NCBI GenBank assembly: GCA_009837185.1 | Contig: VXUA01000034.1 | Location: forward strand, 1-49,191 | Reading direction: 5' to 3' | Source: Gammaproteobacteria bacterium | GTDB lineage: Bacteria > Pseudomonadota > Gammaproteobacteria > Pseudomonadales > Azotimanducaceae | DNA: 49,191 nucleotides | In this document: positions 6,241 through 35,323 of the stretch, one piece after another | Position numbering within the stretch: position 1 is the first letter of the stretch | How the letters are laid out: each line of letters begins with the position of its first letter | Translations under genes and position numbers: made by a program | Notes under the pieces: model-generated | The model's database searches: none | The model's input: only the letters and a program-made list of their open reading frames with translations | What the model was told of the DNA's origin: nothing

Positions 6241-9200
6241 TTATGGTTCAATCCGTAGTACACGCGAGGTCGATTTTCCGAACACTTCTGGCCGATACAT
6301 TTCTTCCGTATGAGCTGGAACTACCTGAAACTCACCGGATATGATTGCTTGCCCTACCCACGACATGCGGTATCTACCGGGATGCACTTGTTTGGCAAAA
6401 AATCTAACGTTTTCGTGTCCTTTTTCTGTGTGGTAAAACGGCCAGGGATTGCCTCGTGCATGTTCAAATTGGTGGAACCATGCACTCTTCGGAGAGAGTT
6501 TGTCCTCGGCCTCCAAATCGACAACGGAATCGGTCGCTAAGATCCGACTAACTGGTTCAATACCACCAGGAACCGTGTCGTCGACAACTACGTGATATCG
6601 GGTCGCAGGTACCGTCAAGAACAAGTTCACCTTGACAATTTCACCCTGTTCGACCGTTGCGTCTCGTGCTAAGGGGTGCCACCCACCGTTTCTTTTTACC
6701 AAATACTCGCGATCCAGCTCAAATCCTGACAATCGTGTTAAAGATGCGTCGGGAGCTGCAAGATAGGACAGTTCGACCGTATAAAAACCATTACCATTGC
6801 CATCTCTTCTGAGCGATAACGTGTCTTTTGAAGGAGCAATTGTGGAAGCTAAGGAGTGCACAAGTCGATGACTCTTCTGTGCTACTCCTAGTTCCAAACC
6901 AGAGGCAAGATTTACTTCACTTCCGTCACTACTTTCGAGATTGATAGACGCGATGAATTCCTTATCAGTGTCAAAGAACGTCGAATATGTCAGTAGCGCA
7001 TTTACGCAATAAACATTTTCTTGAGTGTTAGACCAGTGTTCTCGATCTCCACGAAAAGACATGACAGTTTGCACCAGTGGAAACATTTCATCTCGTTCTA
7101 CTTGGTCTGGTGCAAGTTTTGAGAACCGAGATAGTGCTTCCAATACCACACAGTTGGTGCGAGCATGGGAATTAAGAATAAAGTTGTAAATCGAAGGTAC
7201 GCTCTCGACAAATTCCACACTTCCGTCAACGAGCGTTCGGTCATTCATGATGGTATCGAACGCTAGCCCCGCAATCGTCTGAGCGTTATCCGAGTTAGTG
7301 GCGGCGATCAAGAAGTGCGCTAAACCGAAAAGGTTCATATTCTGGACTTCATTCACAAAGCGAGATAGATCTTCGTGAGTAAATCCATCGGTCCTGGACA
7401 AAGCATTTAACGCAACAGCACGAATCGTCGCGCGCGCTTGACTACTGCCGAGAGCAAAACTCTGTGAATCCCGAAGAACCTCTCTCAAATATTCGTGCAA
7501 ACGTGTTACAACTCTTGCATCTACTTCATACCCTGAATCTTCAATCCACGTAAACGCTAAGGCTGTAAATGCGGAAAGATATGCATTGACGTTATTGTTA
7601 GATGGCACGAAGAACGTCATACCACCGTTCGGTGCTTGAAAGTCGCTCGCCGTTTCCAAAACAGCGTTGATTACTTCATCCGCATCAAACCGACTCATAG
7701 CTGTAACTCCGGTCTGTGCTTGAAGCTTCTTCGACTGCATTGCCATCACAGCTTGAAAGATCTTCTGCTCCCAACAGTTGTAAGGATAAGCGCGTGCATA
7801 ACCAAAAACCCCTTCTAAACTCCCGAAATCGTGTGTAGAGAGATCAATCGTTAAAGCACCTCCGCCATTCGGCGAGAGTTGAGCGGTGTTGATTGGTATC
7901 TGAACAGTGTCTTCGGCTAGTATGCCGTAGTCGACGCTAGTAACTTTGACTCGCGACGCGCGCACGGGAATTTCTACCTTAAGAGAATCTTGGTCAGATC
8001 GGTCCTGCGCACGCGCGATTAATGAGATTTTTTGAAAGTTAGGCGAGCTGACCTCAAGAAAATTGAGATGACCTGCCTGTATGGTGTGTGTTACCGTCTT
8101 GCGTTCGTAGGGTGCGAGAGTCACTTTAGTGGTATGAATTGACTTTTCATCTCTAGCGAGTAAGCCAGATAAGACTAACTCAACGTCTAAGGTGCGTGTC
8201 CGTCGTGCCCGGTTTAGGATTGAAATTCCAACATCAAAGGTATCGCCTTTGGAGACTATGTTGGGGACAGTCGGTCGAATCTCGGTGTCTTTTGTAGAAG
8301 TGAACGAAGTCTGCGTAAAACCAAAGCGATTGTCTGTCGTCGCAGCAAGTACGAACACTCGCCAGGAGGTCAGGTAATCCGGGAGTTCGAATGATAGTTT
8401 GCTTCGCCCTTTCTCCGCGACCACGGATGGATTCCAATACGCTACAAATTTATCAATCGTGCGAATGTCATCGGTAAGCCCGCCACCACCGAACTCCGTT
8501 CCACTCTTCAACATTCTGGAGCTAGTCACTAACACTTCTTCGAGTTCTTTCTCAGTCCGAAACCCAATCAATTTGCGAATTAGAGAATAATTTATTACAC
8601 CAAGTTGGCTGAATCGATCAAAAGCATCCGAGGGATCAAAATAGCTTGAACGAGACTCGATTAGATCCAAAACAGCTTCATCCAAGACAACGACCGCGTA
8701 TTCGACGGGTAGCGAATGTCTATCTGTACGGTCTGAAGCAATAGTCAAGGTCACTTTGTCTCGAGGTTCGTACTTGTTGCGGTTTGAGGTCACTTTAAGG
8801 GTCAAATCTCGTGTCGGATCAGACACATCGAAGGAAGCGTAGCCCAATCGATAATTCGGAATACCCAAATCGACCCAATCCGGGTCATCGAGGTCTGGAG
8901 AACTATCGCCTACTCGAGGTGAGGCGATGATGACGGACAAGAAAAAACCAGGCATGTACTCGGGTTTCACTTCAAAGTCAATGACAGGAGTACTTGAATC
9001 GAACCATTGAACAAATTGATCAATGATTCCGCCGCGTTCGACGGTAATTAGCGCTGAGGAGTTAACTAATGGATTCTGCACCACGCAACGGACTCGCTCA
9101 CCAACTTCAAGTTCACTGTCGACGCAGGACAATTTGAGGAATTTGTTTCTATCGTCTAGGTCTTCCTCCCAAAGAACAAACTCTTTACCGGTAACCCAGA

Positions 9201-12200
9201 GTCGCAAATCTGACTTATGAACATTACCGTTGGAATCTTGCACGGACGCTTCGGTTCGATATTGACCTGGCATCTCTGGTGTGAAAATACACTCGGACAC
9301 GGCACCAGTCGACACGCCGGTACATTGATGCACTAGTTCCCAAACGGTGTGATACACACGATTGAACATGGTCGGAGTCACGCCGCTTTGGACACGTGCT
9401 AGGGCTGTTACACGTTTGTACACTTTAACCTCGAACGGAGCTCCGGCCTTGGGTACTCCTTTCTTTGAAACGACTATCGTTTCGATCGACGACGGAGTTC
9501 CTGATTGAAGTATCGAACGATCTGTCGAACTTAATCCAATGTATCTATTGACTCCTCGATACGGTACCGACGACCGAGAAGTCACATATTTGCCTCGGTC
9601 ACTTTGTACTGCAGACTCCACGGTCAAAGTCCCGACATAGATCTTGCTTTTCAGTTTTGGTATTGACGTCTGTTGGCTACCTTCTTTGTCTAAAGTTGTT
9701 CGGCGTTGCAATAGAGTCTGTCGCGCCACCCGGTCCGAATGATTAAATCGAAACTTTTTCGCTTGTTCCGTATTGAAAAATATGCTTCTTGGTTGGATCC
9801 AAACGGTAATCCTGCCGGGAGCATCCATGTAAGCTCCGCCAGCATGAAACTCACTGGTGGTGGAGACGCTGAAAGGGTCGTTGAATTGAAACTCGTCTCC
9901 ATGGATCAGCTGTGAAACTTTGATTGGATTCGGGGTGAAATCACTTACAAAAAAGTCCATATTGGTTGCGATAGGATGAAGTAGCGGTTCGTCATTCTCC
10001 AGCTCCTGCTCAATGAGAACTGGAATCTCGTAGAAAAGAGCGAAACTATACTGTCCCATGATCGTGGTTTTGGACAATCTAAACTCACCTTCAAATGCAC
10101 CGAATTCATTCAATTCAATTGCTTCTTCCGAGTACACCACGTCCCAGTTCGGACCTCTTACTTCGAGCGAATATCGACCATCAGGTGGTAACTGCAGACG
10201 GATGTCTGACCAATCCCTTACGTATCCTTTATATCTAACCGTATCTCCTTTATGGTAGATGCCCTGCGTTGTCATACCCCATACATTCAGGCGGATGTTA
10301 TCCCCGTGATACCAACTGGAAATCCACCTTCTACTGTTGGAATCTGAGGGCATTCTTAGCTGGAGTGAGGAAATGATGGGTACTACCGCGATCCCCCTTT
10401 CGCCTGTGACCTTGACTAAGATTGCGCGACAGTCGGGCTCTTCACAATCTAGATCCTCCCAATTTCCATCTATCTTTTGGTTCGGGTTATAGACTCGCTG
10501 TCCATTGAGTCTCGCAATGCCGTCCTCGTCGGTGTGTGAGACTTGTGCGTTTGAAGCAACTTTGGCAAAGTCCTTCGGTAGTGTCGCATACAGTTCGACA
10601 CGAGCCCCTGTAACGGGTTGTCCGGACTGCATGTCAGTGACCCAAACTAAAGTGTTTACCGCACTCTCTTTGACGTAGACCTGATAGGATGTCGCTTGTG
10701 CAAAAATATTCTTCCGCATCAAGTCTTCTTGAACTTCGAACCTCGGTGTGGCTTGAATCGATCCGATCATCGCACCCGAAGTTCCACTAAAAATACTCCT
10801 TAGCCCCAAATCTTGAATCAGTACTGTGTTGTCTTCCACGGGTGCTTTAAGATCACGCACTTGATTGGGATGGGTCCCTCGTTTATCGAGGCTTGTGAAC
10901 TGTAAGCTTAGCTCGTCGATATTCCGAGTAAATGTTGGGATAGTAGTTGAAACGTCCGACTCTACTACGAAAAACCAACCTTCTAGATCGAGCTTAGGCC
11001 GGAAATTTCCGGTCTTAATGTCGATACGTTTGATTCCTTGAATGTCACGACCGAATACGTCTTGGAAAGGTGACATTCCCGAATCTGCAGCTTCATCGAT
11101 TTCACCAAATCTGAGTTCATAGTTCGAATTTGGTTGAAGAGGCGTCGGAAGGTTGTACGCAACTTGTTTTGTGCTATCAAAATCTCGAAAATACCAACGC
11201 AGACCTCGAGTCCAAGTTGGACTGTGAAAGGCGCGAGTAAATGGTGGATTGGATGCGAGTAAATTGTCGACTGTTTCTTTCTCGATAGGGCTAGAGAATA
11301 GCAGTGAAATTCGGCGATCAGGTGCGCACGATACTGATTGAATTTCACTTAAATCGTTGACTGTAGATCGTTCGTTGACATTTAAATCAAAACAATCCAA
11401 TCCTAGGAAACGGAACTCTGCAAACGTCTTTGCGACATCTGGGTACACAATTTCCTTTTCTCGGGTCAAGGGTCCTTCGGTAGATTGAATGTAAGGCAAC
11501 TGTACCAACTCGACGCTGTGTCCTTCACCTAGTGCTTTGTTTGGCATTACAAACCATGCTCGAGACGAGTTATGTTGCAGCCAATTAAAACGCCTGTCCA
11601 AGATATCGGAAACACCAACGAATTTGTTCTCCAAAGTCTGCGCTTCGTAATAGTCGTAGACCCATATCTTCGTATCCACACTCTGTTCGGACTCATCGCG
11701 AACTACGAGTCTGTTTGCTAGAGAATCTATTTGAACTGGTTGGTCAAAATTTAAATAAAAAATTGGACGAGTGGGAGAGACCCAAGCAGAAACCCGGGAG
11801 TAAATAATTGTTGGTAGCCTGGTACGAAATTTATGTACATAAGGTTCTGCTAAAGTGTCGCCGGAATCTGTAGTAATTCCAGGTTTGATAGTTACTGTAT
11901 ATTCGGTCGCGAGTTTTAAATACGAGTCGGCTGGTAAATTACACGCGAGCGCATCACGTTTAACCCAATTCCACTCGCACCGAATAGCGGGCTTGATCGT
12001 AATTGGTACATCTTCGACACTGAACAATGACTCACCTAGCGCGATCACATTTTGATCAAATTCAATAACGATGCTCTTCGTTCGTTGAATGTCATCACCA
12101 CTGGGAGTAACTCTTGCGACCTTTAGAGTTTCTGCACCAAGACTGAAACAATACACACAGGTTAGTATTGTTAGAAGGGTTCTGCTGTTGAGTGAGAAAG

Positions 12201-12225
12201 TTGAAAGAACAGGATTATCGTTCAT
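6241..12225 (-). CDS. Bacterial alpha-2-macroglobulin (YfhM-like) with thioester
   Basis: A 1,994-residue exported protein made of many beta-sandwich (MG) domains. It carries a bait-type region and the thioester motif C-W-E-Q (Cys at about residue 1484, codon 7776-7774) inside a helical thioester domain. Such proteins trap attacking proteases in the periplasm through a reactive Cys-Gln bond. It sits 3 bases upstream of pbpC, and the pair is thought to guard against wall and protein damage together. I start it at ATG 12225, which has AGGAAGAG six bases upstream. A TTG at 12246 would add seven residues without benefit. A hydrophobic signal (LLTILTCVYCFSLGA) is present, but no clear lipobox precedes either Cys. 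Unlike E. coli YfhM, it may therefore be soluble in the periplasm. It is also longer than YfhM (about 1,650 residues). Confidence 0.93.
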   Translation of the reverse strand: MNDNPVLSTFSLNSRTLLTILTCVYCFSLGAETLKVARVTPSGDDIQRTKSIVIEFDQNVIALGESLFSVEDVPITIKPAIRCEWNWVKRDALACNLPADSYLKLATEYTVTIKPGITTDSGDTLAEPYVHKFRTRLPTIIYSRVSAWVSPTRPIFYLNFDQPVQIDSLANRLVVRDESEQSVDTKIWVYDYYEAQTLENKFVGVSDILDRRFNWLQHNSSRAWFVMPNKALGEGHSVELVQLPYIQSTEGPLTREKEIVYPDVAKTFAEFRFLGLDCFDLNVNERSTVNDLSEIQSVSCAPDRRISLLFSSPIEKETVDNLLASNPPFTRAFHSPTWTRGLRWYFRDFDSTKQVAYNLPTPLQPNSNYELRFGEIDEAADSGMSPFQDVFGRDIQGIKRIDIKTGNFRPKLDLEGWFFVVESDVSTTIPTFTRNIDELSLQFTSLDKRGTHPNQVRDLKAPVEDNTVLIQDLGLRSIFSGTSGAMIGSIQATPRFEVQEDLMRKNIFAQATSYQVYVKESAVNTLVWVTDMQSGQPVTGARVELYATLPKDFAKVASNAQVSHTDEDGIARLNGQRVYNPNQKIDGNWEDLDCEEPDCRAILVKVTGERGIAVVPIISSLQLRMPSDSNSRRWISSWYHGDNIRLNVWGMTTQGIYHKGDTVRYKGYVRDWSDIRLQLPPDGRYSLEVRGPNWDVVYSEEAIELNEFGAFEGEFRLSKTTIMGQYSFALFYEIPVLIEQELENDEPLLHPIATNMDFFVSDFTPNPIKVSQLIHGDEFQFNDPFSVSTTSEFHAGGAYMDAPGRITVWIQPRSIFFNTEQAKKFRFNHSDRVARQTLLQRRTTLDKEGSQQTSIPKLKSKIYVGTLTVESAVQSDRGKYVTSRSSVPYRGVNRYIGLSSTDRSILQSGTPSSIETIVVSKKGVPKAGAPFEVKVYKRVTALARVQSGVTPTMFNRVYHTVWELVHQCTGVSTGAVSECIFTPEMPGQYRTEASVQDSNGNVHKSDLRLWVTGKEFVLWEEDLDDRNKFLKLSCVDSELEVGERVRCVVQNPLVNSSALITVERGGIIDQFVQWFDSSTPVIDFEVKPEYMPGFFLSVIIASPRVGDSSPDLDDPDWVDLGIPNYRLGYASFDVSDPTRDLTLKVTSNRNKYEPRDKVTLTIASDRTDRHSLPVEYAVVVLDEAVLDLIESRSSYFDPSDAFDRFSQLGVINYSLIRKLIGFRTEKELEEVLVTSSRMLKSGTEFGGGGLTDDIRTIDKFVAYWNPSVVAEKGRSKLSFELPDYLTSWRVFVLAATTDNRFGFTQTSFTSTKDTEIRPTVPNIVSKGDTFDVGISILNRARRTRTLDVELVLSGLLARDEKSIHTTKVTLAPYERKTVTHTIQAGHLNFLEVSSPNFQKISLIARAQDRSDQDSLKVEIPVRASRVKVTSVDYGILAEDTVQIPINTAQLSPNGGGALTIDLSTHDFGSLEGVFGYARAYPYNCWEQKIFQAVMAMQSKKLQAQTGVTAMSRFDADEVINAVLETASDFQAPNGGMTFFVPSNNNVNAYLSAFTALAFTWIEDSGYEVDARVVTRLHEYLREVLRDSQSFALGSSQARATIRAVALNALSRTDGFTHEDLSRFVNEVQNMNLFGLAHFLIAATNSDNAQTIAGLAFDTIMNDRTLVDGSVEFVESVPSIYNFILNSHARTNCVVLEALSRFSKLAPDQVERDEMFPLVQTVMSFRGDREHWSNTQENVYCVNALLTYSTFFDTDKEFIASINLESSDGSEVNLASGLELGVAQKSHRLVHSLASTIAPSKDTLSLRRDGNGNGFYTVELSYLAAPDASLTRLSGFELDREYLVKRNGGWHPLARDATVEQGEIVKVNLFLTVPATRYHVVVDDTVPGGIEPVSRILATDSVVDLEAEDKLSPKSAWFHQFEHARGNPWPFYHTEKGHENVRFFAKQVHPGRYRMSWVGQAIISGEFQVVPAHTEEMYRPEVFGKSTSRVLRIEP

Positions 12226-12552
12226 GTACTCTTCCTGAATCGGCAAGGCTCGTGCTGAAGTTATCGCGATTGGGATTCAAACTGTATCCGGAGGGAAGAC
12301 CGTCCTAGTTAAATCATAACAACAGTTATGGATTTTTACTGCAAAAACTCTGTAAGTTCAATTGATTGCAAGAGGAATGCTTGACCTGCAGGGTTTGGAG
12401 ACGGTTGTTTGTTAGCGCGATTAACTGGTTGAGGTGCTTCGTATAATTTTTTTGCAAGCTGTCGAGATACAGAATAGTTCAGTTATCTTGAACCTACCTA
12501 GAGACGAACCTACGTTTCCAATCTAAAAATCAACAAAGGCAAGTTTTACAGA
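12226..12552. other. Divergent intergenic region
   Basis: This holds the promoters of the alpha-2-macroglobulin operon (leftwards) and the small protein gene at 12553 (rightwards). A TATAAT hexamer at 12442-12447 could be a rightward -10 box, but no good -35 lies 16-18 bases before it. No gene or repeat is seen. Confidence 0.5.
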
Positions 12553-21410: not shown

Positions 21411-22028
21411 CTAGTCCTCGGAGGTTTCCTCCGCGTCGGCATCGTCTTCTGAATCGTCTCCTTTTACGAACTTTTTCACGTCTTCAAGTAAGTCGTCCAT
21501 CGATGGTCGATCGCTGTATCTCTCTTCAGCCCGTTTAAGTACTACTTTGCCGTCAGTATCAACCAATATGACACCAGGATGAGGCACACCATAAGCCCTT
21601 GAACCTTCCTCGTATTGTTCGTTGAGGATACCGAGAGCCTTAACTGTTTTCGCATCTTGATCGGACAATAGCGGATACGTCAATTCTTTGCTACTTTTAA
21701 ATTCAGCATTCTGTTCGACTGAATCATAAGTACTTGCGGATACGGCAACGCCGGCTTCGTTAAATTCTGAAACTCTTTCTTGCAACTCAACTAGTTGCGC
21801 CTTGCAATACGGTCACCAATCGGAGGTGCGCACAAAAAAGATCAAGAGACCCTTGCTCTCGCCTCGTAGATCATCAATCGATCGATCATTACCCTCGGTG
21901 TCTTTGACGGTTAGGTTAGGAACGTCCGTTCCAACATCCGGACCCCATGTGTCTTGATACTCTGCGCCTAATACGGCACCGGCAAATAGTAATAGTGCCA
22001 CGACGAACATAAACTTTTTAATCTTCAT
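21411..22028 (-). CDS. Secreted thioredoxin-fold (peroxiredoxin/AhpC-TSA-like) selenoprotein, copy B
   Basis: One frame runs from ATG 22028 to TAG 21411 with a single internal TGA (21815-21813). Read as selenocysteine it gives 205 residues with DWUPYCKAQLVELQ (U72, C75), a redox UxxC in the place where relatives carry CxxC. A signal peptide (MKIKKFMFVVALLLFAGA) predicts periplasmic location. A thioredoxin fold follows, with FFVRTSDW before the active site, YGVPHPGVILVDTDG (cis-Pro strand) and an acidic tail. The TGA is not a plain stop: the downstream half continues the same domain, has no credible start, and the neighbouring paralogue keeps a TGA at the same residue. TGA ends other genes here, so recoding to Trp is unlikely. 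The likely role is thiol or peroxide redox chemistry; the substrate is unknown. Confidence 0.87.
21782..21798 (-). promoter_or_regulatory. Candidate bacterial SECIS hairpin, copy B
   Basis: Fourteen bases after the UGA, the mRNA can form a perfect 6-bp stem (GCAACU / AGUUGC) with loop AGUUG. Bacterial SECIS elements lie just downstream of UGA, with a G in the apical loop that contacts SelB. Position and loop fit that description. The fold was found by eye, not by energy calculation. Confidence 0.45.
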
Positions 22029-22050
22029 AGGAACTTCGGCTTTGAACAGA

Positions 22051-22668
22051 CTAGTCTTCGGTGGATTCGTCCGCATCGGCTTCTTCTTCCGACACCACCG
22101 CTGCTATAAGCTCTTTCACGTCTTCGATTAAATCGTCCATGGATGCGCTATCTTTGAATTTATGCTCTGCCCGAGTTAGTACCACTTTGTCGTCGGTGTC
22201 GACCAATATCACCCCAGGATGTGAAACGCCGTACTGAAAAGAACCCTCTTCGTAGCTCTCATCGAGAATCCCTAAGCTTTTCACGGTTTTTGCATCTTGA
22301 TCTGATAACAGCGGGTAAGTTAGTTTTTCACTACTCTTAAACGATGCATTCTGCTCTACAGCGTCATAGGTACTTGCCGTAATAGCGATATCTGCTTCTT
22401 CAAATTCTGTAATTCTTTCCTGCAACTCAACTAGTAGCTCTTGGCAACTCCCTCACCAATCCGATGATTTAATAAAAAAGATTAATAGTCCTTTATTCTC
22501 GCCACGAAGATCATCGACGGTACGATCTTTACCCTCTGTATCTTTGACCGCTAGGTCAGGTAGATCTGAACCGATGTCGGGGCCCCATGTTTCTTTATTT
22601 TCGTCGCCTAACACGGCACCGGTTAACAACAGCGCAGCGACAACGAGTAAAAATTTCTTAATCTTCAT
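22051..22668 (-). CDS. Secreted thioredoxin-fold (peroxiredoxin/AhpC-TSA-like) selenoprotein, copy A
   Basis: Same architecture and same length (205 residues) as the gene 22 bp downstream: ATG 22668, signal peptide (MKIKKFLLVVAALLLTGA), internal TGA at 22455-22453 (U72) and TAG stop at 22051. The active site reads DWUGSCQELLVELQ, so the UxxC spacing is kept but the middle pair is Gly-Ser instead of Pro-Tyr. Outside the signal region the two proteins are roughly 70% identical by eye, including YPLLSDQDAKTVK and HPGVILVDTD. It is probably the first gene of a two-gene operon, transcribed divergently from the hydrolase at 22791. Translation needs SelA, SelB, SelC and SelD, none of which is in the window. 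The alternative, two independently broken genes, is unlikely given the equal positions. Confidence 0.85.
22422..22438 (-). promoter_or_regulatory. Candidate bacterial SECIS hairpin, copy A
   Basis: At the same 14-base distance from UGA as in copy B, the mRNA can pair GCUACU with AGUUGC around loop AGUUG, with one U-U mismatch. The loop and 3' arm are identical in both copies. The 5' arm has one change, in a region where the proteins differ. Confidence 0.35.
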
Positions 22669-23832: not shown

Positions 23833-24528
23833 TTGCTTAGACTGATGAACAAATTTTTTTCGACCAATAATCCTGATACTATTGCGATTCTGGGCGGTAC
23901 CGGAGACGTAGGAACCGGTTTTACTTTGCGCTGGGGGAAATCTGGTCATAAGATCATAATAGGATCCCGAACTCGAGCAAAAGCGGAGACCGCGGTCGCG
24001 AAGCTCCTAAAGTCTTTTCCAAACTTGTCGGTGGTCGCAATGGAAAATCGCGAAGCCGCAGAGACAGGAGACATAGTTGTACTTACGGTCCCCGCCGCGC
24101 ATCAGATTAGTACTTTAGCTACTGTGAAAGATGTTCTGAAGGGGAAAATTCTTGTCGACGCAACGGTACCGTTGATGCCACCGAAAGTTGGCACGGTCCA
24201 ACTCCCGAATGAAGGTAGTGCTGGTAAGCGGGCACAAGAATTATTGGGAGACGATGTCATGGTAGTGAGTGCGTTTCAAAATATCGCTGCAGACTTGATG
24301 AAAACAGATGTCGATATAGAATGCGACGTGTTGGTGAGCGGCAACAAAAAAGTGGCTCGGGAGCGAGTGATTCAACTTGCAAAAGATGCAGGTATGCAAG
24401 CTTGGCACGCCGGGCCAATTGACAATGCCGCGGCTGCAGAAGCACTCACAAGTATTCTGATCCAGATCAACAAAAGGTATCCGATTTCTCACTCTGGAAT
24501 CAAAATAGTCGGTGGTCGCCACGACTAA
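23833..24528 (+). CDS. npdG: NADPH-dependent F420 reductase
   Basis: A 231-residue Rossmann enzyme that moves hydride between NADPH and coenzyme F420, supplying F420H2 to F420-dependent enzymes. The dinucleotide motif is ILGGTGDVGTGF (residues 19-30). The family-typical VDATVPLMPP and VSAFQNIAADL follow, with HAGPIDNAAAAEALTS at the C-terminus. The TTG start has a good AGGAG six bases upstream; ATG 23845 would be 18 bases from it. It is the first gene of the F420 operon, six bases before cofE. The neighbours make the F420 assignment secure. It is the only F420-using enzyme visible here. Confidence 0.93.
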   Translation: MLRLMNKFFSTNNPDTIAILGGTGDVGTGFTLRWGKSGHKIIIGSRTRAKAETAVAKLLKSFPNLSVVAMENREAAETGDIVVLTVPAAHQISTLATVKDVLKGKILVDATVPLMPPKVGTVQLPNEGSAGKRAQELLGDDVMVVSAFQNIAADLMKTDVDIECDVLVSGNKKVARERVIQLAKDAGMQAWHAGPIDNAAAAEALTSILIQINKRYPISHSGIKIVGGRHD

Positions 24529-24534
24529 CAGAAA

Positions 24535-25293
24535 GTGAACGTGCAGATTTTGCCTCTCCGAGGTGTTCCTCTTATTAGGGGAGGTGAGGATTTAGGTTTC
24601 GTACTCCTCAAGGTACTAGAGCACTCCAACGTGAGCTTAACGGACCATGATGTCGTCGTGGTCGCTCAGAAAATCGTATCAAAAGCAGAAAACCGCATGG
24701 TTGCTCTGACTTCAGTGACCCCCTCTCCAAGAGCGCAACAACTAGCAATCGAAGTTAATAAGGATCCGCGGTTGGTCGAATTGATCTTACGAGAGTCAAT
24801 CGGCATCGTTCGCCAAAAGAAAGGTGTTCTCATTACTCGTCATCGACTGGGTTTCGTTGCGGCAAACTCTGGAATCGACCAATCAAACGTAGACCACTCC
24901 GATGGTGAACGCGCACTATTACTGCCCATAGCACCCGATCGATCTGCTCAGAAAATCCGTGCGACACTTGCGGATCGGACAAGTACGAATATCGGTGTCA
25001 TCATCAGTGACTCGGTAAATAGACCATGGAGATTGGGGAGTGTAGGTTTAGCTATCGGGGTAGCGAATACCATGGTACTCGACGATCGGCGCGGAGATAC
25101 TGACTTATTTGGGCGCGTGCTCAATATAACCGTATCAAACAGGGCGGATTCCATTGCAACAGCGGCGTTGTTGGTCATGGGAGAGACAGACGAAAGCATA
25201 CCAGTCGCAGTAGTTCGTGGGCTATCGCCTTTAGCTGGTTCTGACGGAGCTCATCTAGGAAATAGACCTTTAGAAGAAGATCTTTTTCAATGA
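24535..25293 (+). CDS. cofE: Coenzyme F420-0:L-glutamate ligase
   Basis: A 252-residue CofE adding glutamate residues to F420-0 with GTP. Family segments: LPLRGVPLIRGGEDLG at the N-terminus, VVAQKIVSKAENR, RLGFVAANSGIDQSNVD, and the metal/GTP-site stretches ISDSVNRPWRLGSVGLAIG and LDDRRGDTDLFGR. It is the single-domain form. The C-terminal FMN reductase domain found in actinobacterial FbiB, which reduces dehydro-F420, is absent. The start is GTG 24535, and the stop overlaps the cofD start in ATGA. Confidence 0.95.
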   Translation: MNVQILPLRGVPLIRGGEDLGFVLLKVLEHSNVSLTDHDVVVVAQKIVSKAENRMVALTSVTPSPRAQQLAIEVNKDPRLVELILRESIGIVRQKKGVLITRHRLGFVAANSGIDQSNVDHSDGERALLLPIAPDRSAQKIRATLADRTSTNIGVIISDSVNRPWRLGSVGLAIGVANTMVLDDRRGDTDLFGRVLNITVSNRADSIATAALLVMGETDESIPVAVVRGLSPLAGSDGAHLGNRPLEEDLFQ

Positions 25294-26240
25294 GTGTCCT
25301 AGCTATAACAGGAGGTGTGGGAGGCGCGAAGTTATCGGTAGGACTGACACACTTACTAAATCCCAATCAGCTCGTGTTCTTAGTTAACACGGGAGATGAT
25401 TTTCGTCATCTAGGTTTGCACATATCGCCCGATCTCGACACACTAATTTACTCGTTAGCAGGAGTTGCCTGTCCTAAGAAAGGTTGGGGACGACGAGACG
25501 AAACTTGGTCATTCCTTAAAACTCTTGAAGATCTCGGTGGTCCTGCATGGTTTCAACTCGGAGATAAAGATCTCGCCTTGCACGTTTACCGAACTCAATT
25601 GATGAGTAATGGCGGTTCCCTAACCGAGGCGACGAAAGAAATTGCCGAAGCTTTAGACGTTACACACTCCGTACTACCCTGCAGTGACGATCCAATAGCG
25701 ACAGTAGTCGATACAGAAGATGGACAACTCTCATTTCAACATTACTTTGTGAAGTATCAATGTCGCCCTCAGGTCAAGGGGATACAGTACGATGGCGCAG
25801 ATCGCGCGCGACTAAATTCGAGCCTAGATTTGGCTACAATCTCAATGGTTGTCATTTGTCCGTCAAATCCTTATCTTTCCGTCGATCCCATCCTAACAAT
25901 CCCAGACTTCCGGAAGTTTTTACAGAATTCTAGTATTCCAGTATTGGCTGTATCACCAATCGTTCAAGGTCGAGCTCTCAAAGGACCAACAGCAAAAATT
26001 ATGACCGAACTTGGACACACCGTGAACAACAAAACCATCGCACGCCACTATAAAGAGATTCTGACTGGATTGATCGTTAATGATGGAGACGCCGTGGATT
26101 GCGAAACAATCCGAGACTTAGGAATCGAGTGTGTCGCGCGGAACACGGTCATGCATACGCTCGATGATCGAGTGCGGCTGGCGCAAGATACCTTGGATTT
26201 CGGGAAAGCACTGTTGAGTCGAAAACGATGTGGGCGATAG
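25290..26240 (+). CDS. cofD: CofD, F420-0 synthase (phospholactyl or related transferase)
   Basis: A 316-residue CofD/FbiA enzyme. It joins the guanylyl-activated C3 acid (from 2-phospholactate, PEP or 3-phosphoglycerate, depending on organism) to the deazaflavin Fo. Motifs: ITGGVGGAKLSVGL at the N-terminus, VNTGDDFRHLGLHISPDLDT, WFQLGDKDLALH, SNPYLSVDPIL and VSPIVQGRALKGPTAK. The ATG shares ATGA with the cofE stop, and its 3' end overlaps cofC by 13 bases, so translation is tightly coupled. Which of the three substrates is used cannot be read from the sequence by eye. Confidence 0.95.
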   Translation: MSVLAITGGVGGAKLSVGLTHLLNPNQLVFLVNTGDDFRHLGLHISPDLDTLIYSLAGVACPKKGWGRRDETWSFLKTLEDLGGPAWFQLGDKDLALHVYRTQLMSNGGSLTEATKEIAEALDVTHSVLPCSDDPIATVVDTEDGQLSFQHYFVKYQCRPQVKGIQYDGADRARLNSSLDLATISMVVICPSNPYLSVDPILTIPDFRKFLQNSSIPVLAVSPIVQGRALKGPTAKIMTELGHTVNNKTIARHYKEILTGLIVNDGDAVDCETIRDLGIECVARNTVMHTLDDRVRLAQDTLDFGKALLSRKRCGR

Positions 26241-26881
26241 TTCCGTACAAAGAGCCACCTTTCGGAAAGACTCGATTATCCAATAGACTCACCCCTTCAC
26301 ATCGTACTGTCCTTGCTTCAACGATGCTTGAGAATGTTGTTGATGCACTAGTGCAGTCAGAACAGATTCGAGGTATATTGCTCGTCTCCGAATCCTCGAA
26401 CTTAACGGAATTTTCGTTGAAAGAGAATGTCATCATCCTAGAAACTCAGACGACTAACCTGAGAGATGCTGTCACTCAAGCTGCCCGATTTGCGTACAAA
26501 CAATTAAGCTGTTCGTCAACATTTATTGTCCCCGCGGACTTACCGCTAATATCACCCAAAGACGTTGATTTTGCCATCACGCAACACGAGCGAGTAACCA
26601 TCATTCCCGACGCACGATTCAAGGGGACAAACGGTATTATTGCTACACCACCGAACGCGTTTGACTACGTATTCAATGGTCAGAGTTATCGTCAACACCA
26701 ACACAATGCACAAGTTGCTGGTTTAAATCCCAAATCTCTCCAAATCGAGGCATTTTCATACGACGTAGATACTTTTGACGATCTCATGATGATTGTCCAA
26801 TTACGCCCCGAATCTCGAACGGCTGCAGTTTACCGAAGCTTGACCACGAGTGATTCCTCATTACCCGCATATAACAAATAA
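26228..26881 (+). CDS. cofC: CofC/FbiD guanylyltransferase for F420 synthesis
   Basis: A 217-residue nucleotidyltransferase that activates a three-carbon phospho-acid with GTP for CofD. It has the CofC N-terminus WAIVPYKEPPFGKTRLSNRL, the metal-binding PADLPLIS, and IIPDARFKGTNGI, the usual nucleotide-site G-T-N. Some proteobacterial homologues prefer 3-phosphoglycerate and yield 3PG-F420; that is known of the family, not shown here. The absence of a dehydro-F420 reductase domain in the cluster is compatible with a 2-phospholactate or 3-phosphoglycerate route. It overlaps cofD and is followed by a 45-bp gap before fbiC. Confidence 0.92.
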   Translation: MWAIVPYKEPPFGKTRLSNRLTPSHRTVLASTMLENVVDALVQSEQIRGILLVSESSNLTEFSLKENVIILETQTTNLRDAVTQAARFAYKQLSCSSTFIVPADLPLISPKDVDFAITQHERVTIIPDARFKGTNGIIATPPNAFDYVFNGQSYRQHQHNAQVAGLNPKSLQIEAFSYDVDTFDDLMMIVQLRPESRTAAVYRSLTTSDSSLPAYNK

Positions 26882-26926
26882 TTTCAATCCGTCCCAGATC
26901 GCACTGGTAACCTGCACGAAAAGAAA

Positions 26927-29341
26927 GTGAGCTTCGATTTAACCATAACAACCCAAGCTGCGTACGACTTGGTGGATGTTCCGCATTTAGATGAACTCAT
27001 CGCACCTGCACAAGAACTGAGAGACGACGGATTTGGTTCAACAATAACCTATTCCAAGAAGGTCTTTATTCCATTGACACAACTGTGTCGCGACGTTTGT
27101 CACTACTGCACGTTTGCAAAAACTCCCGGGAAGTTAACGTCAGTATTTCTCACTGTCGATGAAGTCTTAGATGTTGCACGACAAGGCGAAGTAATGGGTT
27201 GCAAGGAAGCACTTTTCACACTTGGTGAAAAGCCTGAATTGCGTTATAAAGTCGCGAGGGAATGGTTGAACAAAGCGGGTTTTGAATCAACTATCGAATA
27301 TCTCACACACGTCACGGGTCAGGTATTAGAACGTACAAATCTGTTACCGCATGTAAACCCTGGCAATTTGACCTCTGAGGAAATCCGATCATTGTGCCAG
27401 GTTGCTCCATCGATGGGAATCATGCTGGAATCCTCTGCCGAACGACTCACGCAAAAAGGAATGCCGCATTTCGGTTCGCCCGACAAAGTACCGGAGGTTC
27501 GGTTAGCAACTCTTAAGCGTCTTGGCGAACTACGCGTACCAACGACGACGGGCATCTTGATCGGTATTGGAGAGACGCGTGCGGAAAGAGTCGAATCGCT
27601 CTTAGAAATTCGAAAACTGCACCAAGAATTTGGCCATATACAAGAAGTGATCGTACAAAACTTTCGCGCAAAACCTAATACGCTAATGGCTAACGCGACT
27701 GAACCGACGTCAGAGGATCTACGATGGACGATCGCTGTAGCAAGGTTAATTTTTGGTTCTACTATGTCTATTCAAGCTCCGCCTAATTTGAGCCCAGACG
27801 CACTACAGCCTATCGTCAATGCGGGGATCAACGATTGGGGTGGTGTGTCGCCGCTCACGCCGGACTTCGTAAATCCTGAAGCGCCGTGGCCACATTTGGA
27901 AAAACTTGCTCAGGCCACCGAGCAAGCGGGTAAATATTTACACGAACGATTGACTGTTTATCCTCGATTTATCAATGATCAATGGCTTGAAGCGAATCTT
28001 TTGTCGGATATCTTGAAACGGATTGATGCGGAGGGCTTACCGCGTACAGACGATTGGTCTCCGGGAACTGTAACGGAACCGCCGCAAGAAGTATTGCGAC
28101 GTATTCGTGAACCGAATCGGAGCACCGACACACCTATCTACAAAACACTACAAAATGCTATTGATCGGGATCTCAGTGAATCTGAAATCACCGGATTGTT
28201 TTCCGCCCGCGGTCGAGACTTTGACGCCGTCGTCGAATTCGCTGACGAGCTTCGAAAAAGAGTAAACGGCGACGTTGTAACCTACGTGGTAAACCGCAAC
28301 ATCAACTACACAAATATTTGCTACTTCAAGTGTCAGTTCTGTGCTTTCTCTAAGGGCAAATTAGCAGAGAATCTGCGTGGTCGACCATACGATATTTCAA
28401 ATGAGGAACTCGGTCGCCGCGTTGTAGAAGCATGGATTCGTGGTGGTACGGAGGTATGTCTCCAAGGTGGTATACACCCAGCATACACCGGCGAGAAATA
28501 TCTAGATGTTGTTCAAACTGTAAAGGAGGCAGTTCCAGACATTCACGTACATGCTTTTTCGCCGTTAGAAATCTGGCAAGGAGCAAAATCCTTAAATCGT
28601 TCGCTTAAAGACTTCCTATTGGAACTCAAACAAGAGGGACTAGGTACTTTACCAGGTACCGCAGCTGAAATTCTCGACGACGAAGTTCGCGCAATCATAT
28701 GCGCGGACAAAATCAACACCCAACAATGGCTCACGGTGATGCGGACGGCACACGAATGTGGAATCAAGAGTACCGCGACAATCATGTACGGTCACATTGA
28801 ACAACCGATTCATTGGGCTCGGCATCTTGTGCAGATTCGTACGCTCCAACAAGAGACGGGAGGTTTCACTGAGTTCGTTCCACTTCCGTTTATCCACATG
28901 GAAGCCCCAATGTATCTCAAGGGTAAATCTCGGTGCGGTCCGACGTTTCGCGAAGCTATTCTCATGCATGCCGTTGCTCGTATAGCTCTGTATCCGCACA
29001 TCGAAAACATCCAAGCTAGTTGGGTGAAGCTTGGGCGAGAAGGCGTGCGTGCGGTTCTCAGTGCAGGGTGCAATGATCTTGGTGGTACTCTTATGAACGA
29101 GAGTATTTCACGTGCGGCAGGTACCTTGCACGGTCAGGAACTACATCCAACTGAAATGGAAAGTTTGATCACTTCGCTAGAGCGAATTCCTGTACAACGC
29201 ACAACGCTTTACGGTTCTGTGAGCCCCACGATACACCAGAAAGGACTAACCTCGGCTCCACTAAGTTCGATCGACAACTCTCCGCCACGACGGCACACTC
29301 AACCACGAGTACCAGAATTGGTTCGAAATAAGGCGACCTAG
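26927..29341 (+). CDS. fbiC: Fused CofG/CofH Fo synthase
   Basis: An 804-residue two-domain radical-SAM enzyme making Fo (7,8-didemethyl-8-hydroxy-5-deazariboflavin) from tyrosine and a riboflavin precursor. The N-terminal CofG half has the cluster cysteines C54, C58 and C61 (LCRDVCHYCTF). The C-terminal CofH half has C465, C469 and C472 (ICYFKCQFCAF). Two separate 4Fe-4S/SAM sites are expected. The fused form is typical of Actinobacteria and many F420-positive bacteria; archaea have separate genes. The last 40 residues are proline- and serine-rich and likely unstructured. Start GTG 26927. It is the last gene of the F420 operon, and I saw no clear terminator after it. Confidence 0.96.
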   Translation: MSFDLTITTQAAYDLVDVPHLDELIAPAQELRDDGFGSTITYSKKVFIPLTQLCRDVCHYCTFAKTPGKLTSVFLTVDEVLDVARQGEVMGCKEALFTLGEKPELRYKVAREWLNKAGFESTIEYLTHVTGQVLERTNLLPHVNPGNLTSEEIRSLCQVAPSMGIMLESSAERLTQKGMPHFGSPDKVPEVRLATLKRLGELRVPTTTGILIGIGETRAERVESLLEIRKLHQEFGHIQEVIVQNFRAKPNTLMANATEPTSEDLRWTIAVARLIFGSTMSIQAPPNLSPDALQPIVNAGINDWGGVSPLTPDFVNPEAPWPHLEKLAQATEQAGKYLHERLTVYPRFINDQWLEANLLSDILKRIDAEGLPRTDDWSPGTVTEPPQEVLRRIREPNRSTDTPIYKTLQNAIDRDLSESEITGLFSARGRDFDAVVEFADELRKRVNGDVVTYVVNRNINYTNICYFKCQFCAFSKGKLAENLRGRPYDISNEELGRRVVEAWIRGGTEVCLQGGIHPAYTGEKYLDVVQTVKEAVPDIHVHAFSPLEIWQGAKSLNRSLKDFLLELKQEGLGTLPGTAAEILDDEVRAIICADKINTQQWLTVMRTAHECGIKSTATIMYGHIEQPIHWARHLVQIRTLQQETGGFTEFVPLPFIHMEAPMYLKGKSRCGPTFREAILMHAVARIALYPHIENIQASWVKLGREGVRAVLSAGCNDLGGTLMNESISRAAGTLHGQELHPTEMESLITSLERIPVQRTTLYGSVSPTIHQKGLTSAPLSSIDNSPPRRHTQPRVPELVRNKAT

Positions 29342-31107: not shown

Positions 31108-32891
31108 ATGAACGAATTACGACGTAATCTAGATTTATTGGCAAGCAAGGGCTCTCGCTATTTGCGACGGTTTGCATTGAAGGGGGCTATGGAAAGAGCG
31201 TGGCCTTTGGTGGGTATTGTTGCCCTTCTATTCCCGCTTGGGTATTTCGGCTATCGCTGTTACGATATTTATGCAGCTTTTCAGGCGACAGCTGCAGATG
31301 CAAGTTTCTCGCTGGTTCCGGTCGGTTGGGGACTGTTATGGACGATGCTGATCGCGTTGTTAATTCCCGCGGCATTTTGGCTCCTCCTCTACTCCTTAGA
31401 GTCCCGACGTTATCACGGTGCGAAAGAGAGCTTAGCTCGCGCTTGGCCAGTGGTCTTTCTCCTGGCGATTGCGTTCCCCGTAGGCTATTTTGTTTCCTAC
31501 CTGTTCCAGGTTCTAGGTCAATATGCCACCGTATCGTATGGTTTCAGTCCGTTTTTAAGCTTGGCGGTACTCTTGGCTGTTGTCTTAGTGGTTGCCATTC
31601 CTTTCGTGTTTATCGGCCTATGGGCATTTTTCGGATTTTCCTTTGGACGCGTCGACCGACAAACTTCACTGGCTTTGTTTGATCGTGAACTTGGATTAAA
31701 GGACCGACTGCAATCAGCGGATGAATTCCGTTTGAAGGAACAAGCAACGCCATTTGAACAAGCCGCGATTACTGATGCTATGCCCCACGCAGAGCAAGCA
31801 CTGCAAACGCGGTTGGCGAATATAGAAATCGCCAGACCGGCAATGGATACCATCAAATGGCCGCTGGTTTTTGCTGCAATGTTCATTTTTGTTCTCGGGT
31901 TGTCAACGAACGGCTTGCAGTTTGAGAAATCCACGATTGAACTGGCGATGGTTAGTCCCGACGATCATGTCGATCCTAATGAATCCGAAGAAGACGTAAA
32001 ACCGCCGGTATTTCCCGACGAGAAGAGTACCGAACAAGACGTACCGGAACCAGATGCTCCGGTAGCCGAAGAACAGAAGCCAACCGAGATGAAGAAAGCC
32101 ACCGAAGCTACGAACTCGGAATCCTCGCTCGCGGAGTCGGAGGAAGCACAAAGTGTGCCCCAGCAGACTTCGGAGAGTGGGTTGAGCGCGAGCGCTTCCA
32201 AACAAAACCAGCCGGGACAGGCGGCATCGAATATCGCTGGACTCGGGAACGAGAAACAGCAAGAAGAAGAGGTCGCGAAGAAGAAAGAGTCTAAGAAGAG
32301 CAAACCGGAGAAAGAAAACGATTCGAAGGAAGAAGAGAAAGACGACTCTGCAAGCGGTATCGCCGGTGGCAAAGGCACTGGTTCTGGCAAACAATCGGCC
32401 TCCACGGAAATGTTAGAGCAACACAGTCGATCTCGCGAAGATGACTTCGATCAAGACGTCGATCAAGAGTCCGATGACGAAGAGGATGAAGAGCAAGAAG
32501 CTGCAAGTGCGGCGAAACCCATGTTAAACCAGCGCAAAGCTCCTGTAGATCGTCAGTTGACACCATCGGGCGTCGGCTTTGAAGAGAATGAAGAACTTAA
32601 TGGTCGCGGTGGTCCTGGCGGTCTCAAGAAAACTCGTGGCGTCGCCGCGATGTTGCTTGGGGTTCCCATGCCAGATAAGCTGAGATCCCAAATTAACGTG
32701 GGCCGCATTAAGGTACAGCGGGAACGCTCGATTCCTATTCCCAATCAAGTCCAAACCACAAACAGTGAGAACCGGGGACAAATGGACGACAGTGTCGGTA
32801 CCTTCTCCCGCACTGAATTGAAACCCTGGATGCGAGACGTCGCGAAGAAGTACTTCCTCGACCTCCGCCAGAACAACAATACTGAAAACTA
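31064..32891 (+). repeat. Exact 1,828-bp direct repeat, copy 1
   Basis: This is identical to 33495-35322 (offset 2,431) at every position I compared, synonymous sites included. It begins 44 bases before the start codon and ends at the second base of the stop codon (TAG here, TAA in copy 2). Bases on both sides differ. Confidence 0.95.
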
Positions 32892-32892
32892 G
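31108..32892 (+). CDS. Membrane protein with charged low-complexity region, copy 1
   Basis: A 594-residue inner-membrane protein. Helices lie at about residues 31-52, 73-94, 112-134 and 150-178, then one at 246-262. The first four form two related halves: RAWPLVGIVALLFPLGYF at 30 and RAWPVVFLLAIAFPVGYF at 111. Residues about 278-500 are very rich in E, K, S, D and Q and probably disordered. The C-terminus (PWMRDVAKKYFLDLR) looks folded. The ribosome site GAAGAAGG lies just before ATG. The moxR gene follows copy 2 directly, so the protein probably works with the MoxR/vWA complex as a scaffold. I do not recognise a named family, though DUF4175-type proteins hold a similar place. Confidence 0.85.
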   Translation: MNELRRNLDLLASKGSRYLRRFALKGAMERAWPLVGIVALLFPLGYFGYRCYDIYAAFQATAADASFSLVPVGWGLLWTMLIALLIPAAFWLLLYSLESRRYHGAKESLARAWPVVFLLAIAFPVGYFVSYLFQVLGQYATVSYGFSPFLSLAVLLAVVLVVAIPFVFIGLWAFFGFSFGRVDRQTSLALFDRELGLKDRLQSADEFRLKEQATPFEQAAITDAMPHAEQALQTRLANIEIARPAMDTIKWPLVFAAMFIFVLGLSTNGLQFEKSTIELAMVSPDDHVDPNESEEDVKPPVFPDEKSTEQDVPEPDAPVAEEQKPTEMKKATEATNSESSLAESEEAQSVPQQTSESGLSASASKQNQPGQAASNIAGLGNEKQQEEEVAKKKESKKSKPEKENDSKEEEKDDSASGIAGGKGTGSGKQSASTEMLEQHSRSREDDFDQDVDQESDDEEDEEQEAASAAKPMLNQRKAPVDRQLTPSGVGFEENEELNGRGGPGGLKKTRGVAAMLLGVPMPDKLRSQINVGRIKVQRERSIPIPNQVQTTNSENRGQMDDSVGTFSRTELKPWMRDVAKKYFLDLRQNNNTEN

Positions 32893-33538: not shown

Positions 33539-35322
33539 ATGAACGAATTACGACGTAATCTAGATTTATTGGCAAGCAAGGGCTCTCGCTATTTGCGACG
33601 GTTTGCATTGAAGGGGGCTATGGAAAGAGCGTGGCCTTTGGTGGGTATTGTTGCCCTTCTATTCCCGCTTGGGTATTTCGGCTATCGCTGTTACGATATT
33701 TATGCAGCTTTTCAGGCGACAGCTGCAGATGCAAGTTTCTCGCTGGTTCCGGTCGGTTGGGGACTGTTATGGACGATGCTGATCGCGTTGTTAATTCCCG
33801 CGGCATTTTGGCTCCTCCTCTACTCCTTAGAGTCCCGACGTTATCACGGTGCGAAAGAGAGCTTAGCTCGCGCTTGGCCAGTGGTCTTTCTCCTGGCGAT
33901 TGCGTTCCCCGTAGGCTATTTTGTTTCCTACCTGTTCCAGGTTCTAGGTCAATATGCCACCGTATCGTATGGTTTCAGTCCGTTTTTAAGCTTGGCGGTA
34001 CTCTTGGCTGTTGTCTTAGTGGTTGCCATTCCTTTCGTGTTTATCGGCCTATGGGCATTTTTCGGATTTTCCTTTGGACGCGTCGACCGACAAACTTCAC
34101 TGGCTTTGTTTGATCGTGAACTTGGATTAAAGGACCGACTGCAATCAGCGGATGAATTCCGTTTGAAGGAACAAGCAACGCCATTTGAACAAGCCGCGAT
34201 TACTGATGCTATGCCCCACGCAGAGCAAGCACTGCAAACGCGGTTGGCGAATATAGAAATCGCCAGACCGGCAATGGATACCATCAAATGGCCGCTGGTT
34301 TTTGCTGCAATGTTCATTTTTGTTCTCGGGTTGTCAACGAACGGCTTGCAGTTTGAGAAATCCACGATTGAACTGGCGATGGTTAGTCCCGACGATCATG
34401 TCGATCCTAATGAATCCGAAGAAGACGTAAAACCGCCGGTATTTCCCGACGAGAAGAGTACCGAACAAGACGTACCGGAACCAGATGCTCCGGTAGCCGA
34501 AGAACAGAAGCCAACCGAGATGAAGAAAGCCACCGAAGCTACGAACTCGGAATCCTCGCTCGCGGAGTCGGAGGAAGCACAAAGTGTGCCCCAGCAGACT
34601 TCGGAGAGTGGGTTGAGCGCGAGCGCTTCCAAACAAAACCAGCCGGGACAGGCGGCATCGAATATCGCTGGACTCGGGAACGAGAAACAGCAAGAAGAAG
34701 AGGTCGCGAAGAAGAAAGAGTCTAAGAAGAGCAAACCGGAGAAAGAAAACGATTCGAAGGAAGAAGAGAAAGACGACTCTGCAAGCGGTATCGCCGGTGG
34801 CAAAGGCACTGGTTCTGGCAAACAATCGGCCTCCACGGAAATGTTAGAGCAACACAGTCGATCTCGCGAAGATGACTTCGATCAAGACGTCGATCAAGAG
34901 TCCGATGACGAAGAGGATGAAGAGCAAGAAGCTGCAAGTGCGGCGAAACCCATGTTAAACCAGCGCAAAGCTCCTGTAGATCGTCAGTTGACACCATCGG
35001 GCGTCGGCTTTGAAGAGAATGAAGAACTTAATGGTCGCGGTGGTCCTGGCGGTCTCAAGAAAACTCGTGGCGTCGCCGCGATGTTGCTTGGGGTTCCCAT
35101 GCCAGATAAGCTGAGATCCCAAATTAACGTGGGCCGCATTAAGGTACAGCGGGAACGCTCGATTCCTATTCCCAATCAAGTCCAAACCACAAACAGTGAG
35201 AACCGGGGACAAATGGACGACAGTGTCGGTACCTTCTCCCGCACTGAATTGAAACCCTGGATGCGAGACGTCGCGAAGAAGTACTTCCTCGACCTCCGCC
35301 AGAACAACAATACTGAAAACTA
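33495..35322 (+). repeat. Exact 1,828-bp direct repeat, copy 2
   Basis: Partner of 31064-32891. The base before it is G against C in copy 1, and the last stop-codon base differs (A against G). CAACGC at the repeat edge also occurs at 33376-33381 in the diverged promoter, a possible microhomology at the join. Confidence 0.95.
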
Positions 35323-35323
35323 A
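33539..35323 (+). CDS. Membrane protein with charged low-complexity region, copy 2
   Basis: The 594 residues are identical to the product at 31108-32892: two duplicated two-helix units, a fifth helix near 246-262, then a long E/K/S-rich stretch and a short C-terminal domain. This copy ends TAA and is followed after 31 bases by moxR with its own ribosome site (AAGAGAGAA). It is therefore the copy joined to the operon. If both copies are real, the cell makes a double dose of one protein from two promoters. Confidence 0.85.
   Translation: MNELRRNLDLLASKGSRYLRRFALKGAMERAWPLVGIVALLFPLGYFGYRCYDIYAAFQATAADASFSLVPVGWGLLWTMLIALLIPAAFWLLLYSLESRRYHGAKESLARAWPVVFLLAIAFPVGYFVSYLFQVLGQYATVSYGFSPFLSLAVLLAVVLVVAIPFVFIGLWAFFGFSFGRVDRQTSLALFDRELGLKDRLQSADEFRLKEQATPFEQAAITDAMPHAEQALQTRLANIEIARPAMDTIKWPLVFAAMFIFVLGLSTNGLQFEKSTIELAMVSPDDHVDPNESEEDVKPPVFPDEKSTEQDVPEPDAPVAEEQKPTEMKKATEATNSESSLAESEEAQSVPQQTSESGLSASASKQNQPGQAASNIAGLGNEKQQEEEVAKKKESKKSKPEKENDSKEEEKDDSASGIAGGKGTGSGKQSASTEMLEQHSRSREDDFDQDVDQESDDEEDEEQEAASAAKPMLNQRKAPVDRQLTPSGVGFEENEELNGRGGPGGLKKTRGVAAMLLGVPMPDKLRSQINVGRIKVQRERSIPIPNQVQTTNSENRGQMDDSVGTFSRTELKPWMRDVAKKYFLDLRQNNNTEN

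Follow-up and report, generated by a model that had tools for sequence, protein, structure and literature searches.

The locus described here raises a simple question: why should two adjoining genes, each with a frame of 205 codons, carry a UGA triplet at the same internal position, and what do they encode? The two genes, here called A and B, lie in a stretch of 49,191 nucleotides (nt) that constitutes positions 1 to 49,191 of contig VXUA01000034.1 from a gammaproteobacterial assembly of the family Azotimanducaceae (GCA_009837185.1; 2.77 Mb, 86 contigs, 95% complete). This whole stretch is referred to below as the window. Each gene very probably encodes a secreted redox protein with selenocysteine (Sec) in its active site. 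We further consider it likely that the two products are exported thiol:disulfide oxidoreductases of peroxiredoxin (Prx) fold that derive from one duplication, after which copy B kept the ancestral site and copy A changed.

Two tandem genes, each with one in-frame UGA

Genes A and B are arranged head to tail, and both proteins begin with MKIKKF. Each frame contains a single TGA, at codon 72, embedded in a UxxC motif in which U stands for Sec and C for cysteine (Cys): UGSC in A and UPYC in B. The features of the pair are as follows.

22051..22668, minus strand: gene A, first of the pair; predicted Sec-containing Prx-fold protein of 205 codons, SDWUGSC motif, TAG stop
21411..22028, minus strand: gene B, second of the pair; predicted Sec-containing Prx-fold protein of 205 codons, SDWUPYC motif, TAG stop
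22453..22455, minus strand: in-frame UGA of gene A, putative Sec codon (U72), aligned with Cys of relatives
21813..21815, minus strand: in-frame UGA of gene B, putative Sec codon (U72), aligned with Cys of relatives
22606..22668, minus strand: gene A, probable signal peptide of some 21 residues, cut after AVLG as judged by eye; a Cys-free stretch
21966..22028, minus strand: gene B, probable signal peptide of some 21 residues, cut after AVLG as judged by eye
22029..22050, minus strand: gap of 22 bases between A and B, from the coordinates; probably spanned by a single transcript

The tandem 205-codon genes, the aligned TGA at codon 72, the xxC that follows it and the TAG stops had all been described in an earlier reading of the letters alone (the original prediction), and all are seen in the translations. 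The signal peptides that it assigned to both copies likewise appear sound by eye, with MKIKK followed by a hydrophobic stretch and AVLG. Its expectation that gene calling would report four fragments held in part: an ordinary list of open reading frames (ORFs) does split the genes, but it shows three of the four pieces, since the fourth, at 71 codons, falls below the 80-amino-acid (aa) limit of the list. Over their full length the two proteins are 69% identical and align without gaps. Frames that can be joined across one TGA, with 60 or more codons ahead of it and 100 or more after it, number four in the window; two of these run antisense to longer ORFs, and the A/B pair are the sole free-standing ones. 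A comparison of A with B within each of six genomes that carry both gave ratios of nonsynonymous to synonymous substitution rates (dN/dS) of 0.11–0.18 downstream of the UGA and 0.04–0.13 upstream, which are rough values because dS mostly exceeds 1. The gap between the copies is 22 bases in five of these six genomes and 321 in the other (G002).

Relatives and the residue at site 72

Relatives were sought in 97 genomes, the window's own included, at a threshold of E<=1e-20. Matches were found in 51 of the 97, comprising 50 of the 61 genomes of the same family and one of the 36 from the rest of the order; every one of the 51 has at least one TGA copy. Within a sample of the class (369 genomes, mostly from other orders), the window's own genome was the sole match at the same threshold. 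A scan of named genome contigs yielded 23 loci, of which 6 have UGA, 16 have Cys and one (L082) was too remote and was left out of the family table. Both sets of matches collapse to 83 distinct coding sequences. The original prediction had proposed a search for Cys at this place in homologues, and relatives indeed read through the site, with TGA in 62 of the 83, TGC or TGT in 16, and another codon or none in the remaining 5. The last group consists of TGG (G032) and CAT (G010) in broken genes, GAC (Asp) in G012, and one Sec-less, apparently intact row each from G010 and G008. Forms with Cys occur in Henriciella, Aquisalinus and other Alphaproteobacteria, in one Vicinamibacteria metagenome-assembled genome (MAG), and in four Gammaproteobacteria or Pseudomonadales MAGs.

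Some relatives have departed further from the common pattern. The corresponding locus of G010 (L104 3793-6371) is an array: beside one Sec copy it has a broken one, a remnant, and a copy of 219 aa that looks intact but has neither Sec nor Cys at site 72. The Sec-less copy of G008 (L111 2351-2992) sits on a separate contig and forms one clade with its counterpart in G010. A longer Sec form of 358–413 aa, with a UPPC motif and a C-terminal extension, is present in six genomes of the family (L105, L107, L108, L109, L110 and L112; two of the six were aligned).

Selenocysteine machinery

The genome that harbors the pair encodes the apparatus for Sec insertion. The original prediction had named selA, selB, selC and selD as the genes to look for, and all four are present, each above its curated cut-off. 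A tRNA-Sec (selC) scores 67.5 bits, above the Rfam cut-off, and is assigned the anticodon TCA by ARAGORN; selA (533.5 bits) adjoins selB (412.6 bits), and selD scores 258.7 bits. Neither of the two outcomes that would have overturned the original prediction, a genome devoid of this apparatus or homologues that stop short of the UGA, was observed. An ORF resembling a transposase, presumably of the IS30 type, adjoins selA-selB (L017 3593-4306). Across the 97 genomes, selA was detected at E<=0.001 in 50 of the 51 carriers of the family (47 above the cut-off, 3 as fragments) versus 11 of the 46 non-carriers (Fisher p=1.3e-15), and within the same bacterial family in 49 of 50 carriers versus 7 of 11 non-carriers (p=0.003), in both cases among related genomes that are not independent of each other.

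A covarying hairpin downstream of the UGA

Bacterial Sec codons are read with the help of a hairpin, the selenocysteine insertion sequence (SECIS), and a candidate was found in both genes.

22422..22438, minus strand: gene A, SECIS-like hairpin with five of its six pairs formed and a U.U mismatch at the other, loop AGUUG
21782..21798, minus strand: gene B, SECIS-like hairpin with all six pairs formed, loop AGUUG

The hairpin occupies a fixed place, bases 17–33 counted from the T of the UGA as 0, and comprises a six-pair stem and a loop of five bases that begins 20 bases past the UGA. The 62 UGA genes form a mean of 5.82 of the six pairs (six in 51 genes, five in 11). When synonymous codons were redrawn from each gene's own usage, the mean fell to 4.26 (standard deviation 0.12), and none of 1000 redraws reached 5.82. 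Sliding the 3′ arm by 1–6 bases either way left at most 3.29 pairs in the same genes. The 16 Cys genes, by comparison, form 3.13 pairs against 3.09 in their own null, a value equaled or exceeded in 482 of 1000 redraws. The second loop position is G in all 62 UGA genes versus 5 of the 16 Cys genes. The place of the hairpin was chosen after energy-based hairpins had been viewed, a choice that the redraws, the shifted arms and the comparison with Cys genes control for in part.

The pairing is also maintained through change. Along the tree, three of the six pairs switch type, 11, 9 and 6 times respectively (26 in total, paired rows being counted), and the other three keep a single pair type throughout. 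Codons of the hairpin that specify invariant residues show synonymous change in only 1 of 5 cases in A and 1 of 6 in B; by the same measure, upstream codons change in 21 of 30 and 22 of 32 cases, respectively, and those downstream of the hairpin in 31 of 77 in A and 64 of 88 in B. Together with the conserved codon and the machinery, the covarying hairpin strongly supports, at the level of sequence, that the UGA is read as Sec.

Fold, active site and proposed function

Both proteins match the AhpC-TSA domain (PF00578) well above its gathering cut-off of 26 bits, A with 77.2 and B with 99.7. The predicted structure of the gene B product (mean predicted local distance difference test score, pLDDT, 83.6, with low pLDDT in a helix at residues 10–27) has a peroxiredoxin fold whose best matches are Bcp/AhpE chains. 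Within this fold, U72 is the first position of a CxxC-type site. The original prediction had taken U to replace the peroxidatic or resolving Cys. Profile alignments with solved Bcp/PrxQ chains correct this assignment: it is C75 that falls on the peroxidatic column, and U72 lies three residues before it. The column of the Thr/Ser in the peroxiredoxin TxxC motif holds Sec or Cys in all 28 rows of one family alignment (A2). P151, a Pro shared by 58 of 59 relatives, aligns with an Arg in 2cx3, 2ywn and 3hjp, and in the alignment with 5enu the Arg falls on H150. Peroxiredoxins carry Arg at this cis-Pro position (PMC2757866). With Sec in the first CxxC position and a cis-Pro in place of the Arg, the protein is probably a thiol:disulfide oxidoreductase in which Sec makes the attack.

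We infer the following course of events, including Sec insertion, export, function and substrate, the reductant, and the direction in which electrons flow. UGA 72 would be decoded as Sec by SelB and tRNA-Sec, aided by the bacterial SECIS hairpin. The products would be exported as Prx-like folds that bear a thioredoxin- or ResA-type UxxC site and a cis-proline. In the periplasm, Sec72 would attack the substrate and Cys75 would resolve the mixed selenosulfide, after which the enzyme could be re-reduced, for example via a DsbD-like protein; a DsbD-type membrane domain is encoded in the genome.

The strongest competitor is that A and B are selenoprotein peroxidases, with H2O2 or organic peroxides oxidizing Sec72 to a selenenic acid that Cys75 then resolves. 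The results here do not separate disulfide from peroxide action of the enzyme. The peroxidase reading appears doubtful, as the TxxC motif and the Arg at the cis-Pro position are both absent: in 2cx3, 2ywn and 3hjp the peroxidatic Cys aligns with C75, three residues after U72, and the Arg with the nearly invariant P151.

This ambiguity is one of several points that weigh against a pair of Sec-dependent oxidoreductases as proposed above. Genome G044 (completeness 85%) has a UGA copy and no detected selA, and 11 genomes have selA and no match to the gene at E<=1e-20. The folding energies, too, run counter to a naive, purely energetic view of the hairpin. Free-energy z-scores against synonymous redraws are the same in Sec genes (−0.71, n=62) and Cys genes (−0.69, n=16), with values under −1 in 23 of 62 and 6 of 16, and single-sequence folding of the two regions in the window gives no improvement on dinucleotide shuffles (z from 0.36 to 1.29). 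With neither a separation of Sec from Cys genes nor a gain over shuffles, energy-based SECIS tests were dropped. Taken alone, the hairpin is weak, at −5.5 kcal/mol in B and −1.3 in A, whereas the published bacterial SECIS (bSECIS) model demands a minimum free energy (MFE) of at most −7.5 kcal/mol, an apical loop of 3–9 nt, an upper stem of 4–16 base pairs (bp), a G within the first two loop positions, and a distance of 16–37 nt from the UGA (PMC13188914). The outcome of the MFE comparison varies with how much RNA is folded: 53-nt stretches counted from the UGA give −7.3 and −4.4 kcal/mol, and 68-nt stretches give −9.7 with the hairpin retained and −9.2 with other pairs in its stead. The loop (5 nt), the G (second position) and the distance (20 nt) agree with the model in both genes; the stem measures 6 bp in B and spans 6 positions in A, one of them mismatched. 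Putative elements of some genes in the same source also fail the model (PMC13188914).

Duplication and divergence of the two copies

Copies A and B stand side by side in six genomes of the genus (G000, G002, G005, G008, G011 and G013). Flanking genes, compared by eye in two genomes, agree with those of the window both in G008 and in G010, which has one Sec copy. On a tree that excludes two broken rows, the six UGSC sequences (copy A) form a single clade with support of 100/99, so the duplication predates the split of the six genomes. The best explanation is that copy B kept the ancestral site type and that copy A was altered around the site. Conservation was counted over another 59 relatives, of which 44 have Sec and 15 have Cys; seven rows longer than 240 aa, namely six Sec rows and one Cys row (L066), were omitted. 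In all six genomes, copy A no longer has Q78 and R174, each present in 59 of 59 of these relatives, or P73, present in 52 of 59, and in four of the six it has also lost R67 (59 of 59). Copy B changed a single conserved column in all six, S68 to T. Codon 78 reads CAA in the six B copies and CUA in the six A copies, and the base that produces Q78L is the same one that creates the U.U mismatch in all six copy A hairpins.

What, then, is copy A for? One tentative idea, which we rate as unlikely but worth stating, is a specialized selenoprotein couple in which A was re-tuned (P73G, Q78L, loss of R174) to another partner, perhaps B itself, in a Sec-to-Sec relay in the periplasm, Q78L having weakened A's hairpin along the way; on this idea the ratio of A to B would track the selenium supply. 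Somewhat less probable still is that A is a decaying paralogue, with a weak hairpin, little Sec insertion and a product of little use. Its loss of Q78, R174 and P73 and its hairpin mismatch in all six genomes would suit decay, as would the occurrence of Sec-less and broken copies in the genus. Yet the frame is intact and both the UGA and Cys75 are retained in all six genomes, all 15 pairs of copy A orthologues have dN/dS below 1 (0.04–0.56), and the hairpin codons are conserved.

A further peculiarity of copy A concerns dS, which in every one of 15 orthologue pairs is lower in the part downstream of the UGA (window 22051-22452) than in the upstream part; in B this holds for 8 of 15. An overlapping gene was considered as the cause and rejected, as no other frame was found to be open throughout that stretch in all six genomes.

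Two readings of the UGA itself can be set aside. That it terminates translation, leaving pseudogenes or peptides of 71 residues, is highly improbable: UGA does end other frames of the window in the ordinary way, but dN/dS is low past the triplet, the frame continues in 62 distinct relatives, the hairpin covaries and the genome has the Sec machinery; the pseudogene reading was rejected on these grounds. That UGA is a general sense codon, for which its in-frame presence in both genes might speak, is rejected as practically negligible, as TGA ends 5 of the 25 non-overlapping window ORFs of at least 150 aa, and of the genome's 26 AhpC-TSA matches 24 are free of internal stop codons, A and B being the two exceptions.

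Relation to known proteins

Selenoproteins of the UxxC Prx-like/AhpC-TSA kind have been on record since the 2005 survey of the Sargasso Sea (PMC1088965), and appear again in PMC2398784, PMC9312934 and PMC13188914. The window proteins share the AhpC-TSA domain and the UxxC motif with the Prx-like thiol:disulfide oxidoreductase selenoproteins ("Prx-like 1") of the Global Ocean Sampling (GOS) survey, and differ in being tandem paralogues with UPYC and UGSC; the likeness is one of domain and motif descriptions rather than of sequences. WP_010940744.1 is a published representative of the kind. With ResA, CcmG and TlpA they share a CxxC-type site and a cis-Pro (PMC2757866), but they have Sec for the first Cys, their best fold matches are Bcp/AhpE, and they score 50 and 35.1 bits with the ResA profile NF002854, far below its cut-off of 170. 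Unlike the PrxQ/Bcp and AhpE peroxiredoxins, they have neither TxxC nor the Arg at the cis-Pro place. Sec-containing peroxiredoxins with TxxU belong to the same Pfam family, but there Sec is the last residue of the motif, whereas in the window it is the first (PMC13188914).

Profile searches yielded only weak likenesses. The SelL-related model NF040769 matches B with 50 and A with 34.1 bits, below its curated cut-off of 120, and this weak match is common to all 29 family members scanned (E<=0.001). The UGSC-containing selenoprotein model NF041046 matched neither window protein at E<=1 in the NCBIfam search, and the UGSC letters that it has in common with copy A are taken as coincidence. Neither protein reaches any NCBIfam cut-off, and the family is for that reason likely to be split by ordinary annotation. 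Among the open-licence PMC papers that the searches listed, a limited sample and no proof of absence, no report was found of tandem bacterial UxxC selenoproteins, nor of selenoproteins in sponge symbionts or in Halieaceae/OM60/HTCC2089. Reads with two adjoining selenoprotein genes, of different families, have been described (PMC2398784). Thus the kind of protein is already known; what is new is a tandem pair kept in six genomes, the divergence of its copies, and the loss from copy A of three otherwise conserved residues, one of these changes breaking a pair of its own hairpin.

Surroundings of the pair

Genes beside the pair (window 23833-29341) resemble those of coenzyme F420 synthesis; we take them to be an F420-dependent NADP reductase, cofE, cofD, cofC and an fbiC-like fusion. 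Further along, two adjoining ORFs of 594 aa (31108-32892 and 33539-35323), each with an antisense open frame of equal extent, are perhaps another tandem pair. The window also contains very long ORFs at 6241-12246 (2001 aa) and 41562-48428 (2288 aa). In the genome at large, 24 AhpC-TSA matches lie above the cut-off, 15 of them within open frames of 426–701 aa; one such ORF (L029 130-1977) probably starts with a signal peptide and has an extended N-terminal part, with a WCGPC stretch toward its C terminus.

Significance

Among the sampled genomes, a Sec-containing family of Prx-fold UxxC proteins is concentrated in one gammaproteobacterial family. Copy A offers a clean case in which a single mutation constitutes both Q78L and the loss of a SECIS pair; because the two changes are one and the same, the conflict between selection on the protein and selection on the RNA within a bacterial selenoprotein gene is directly testable.
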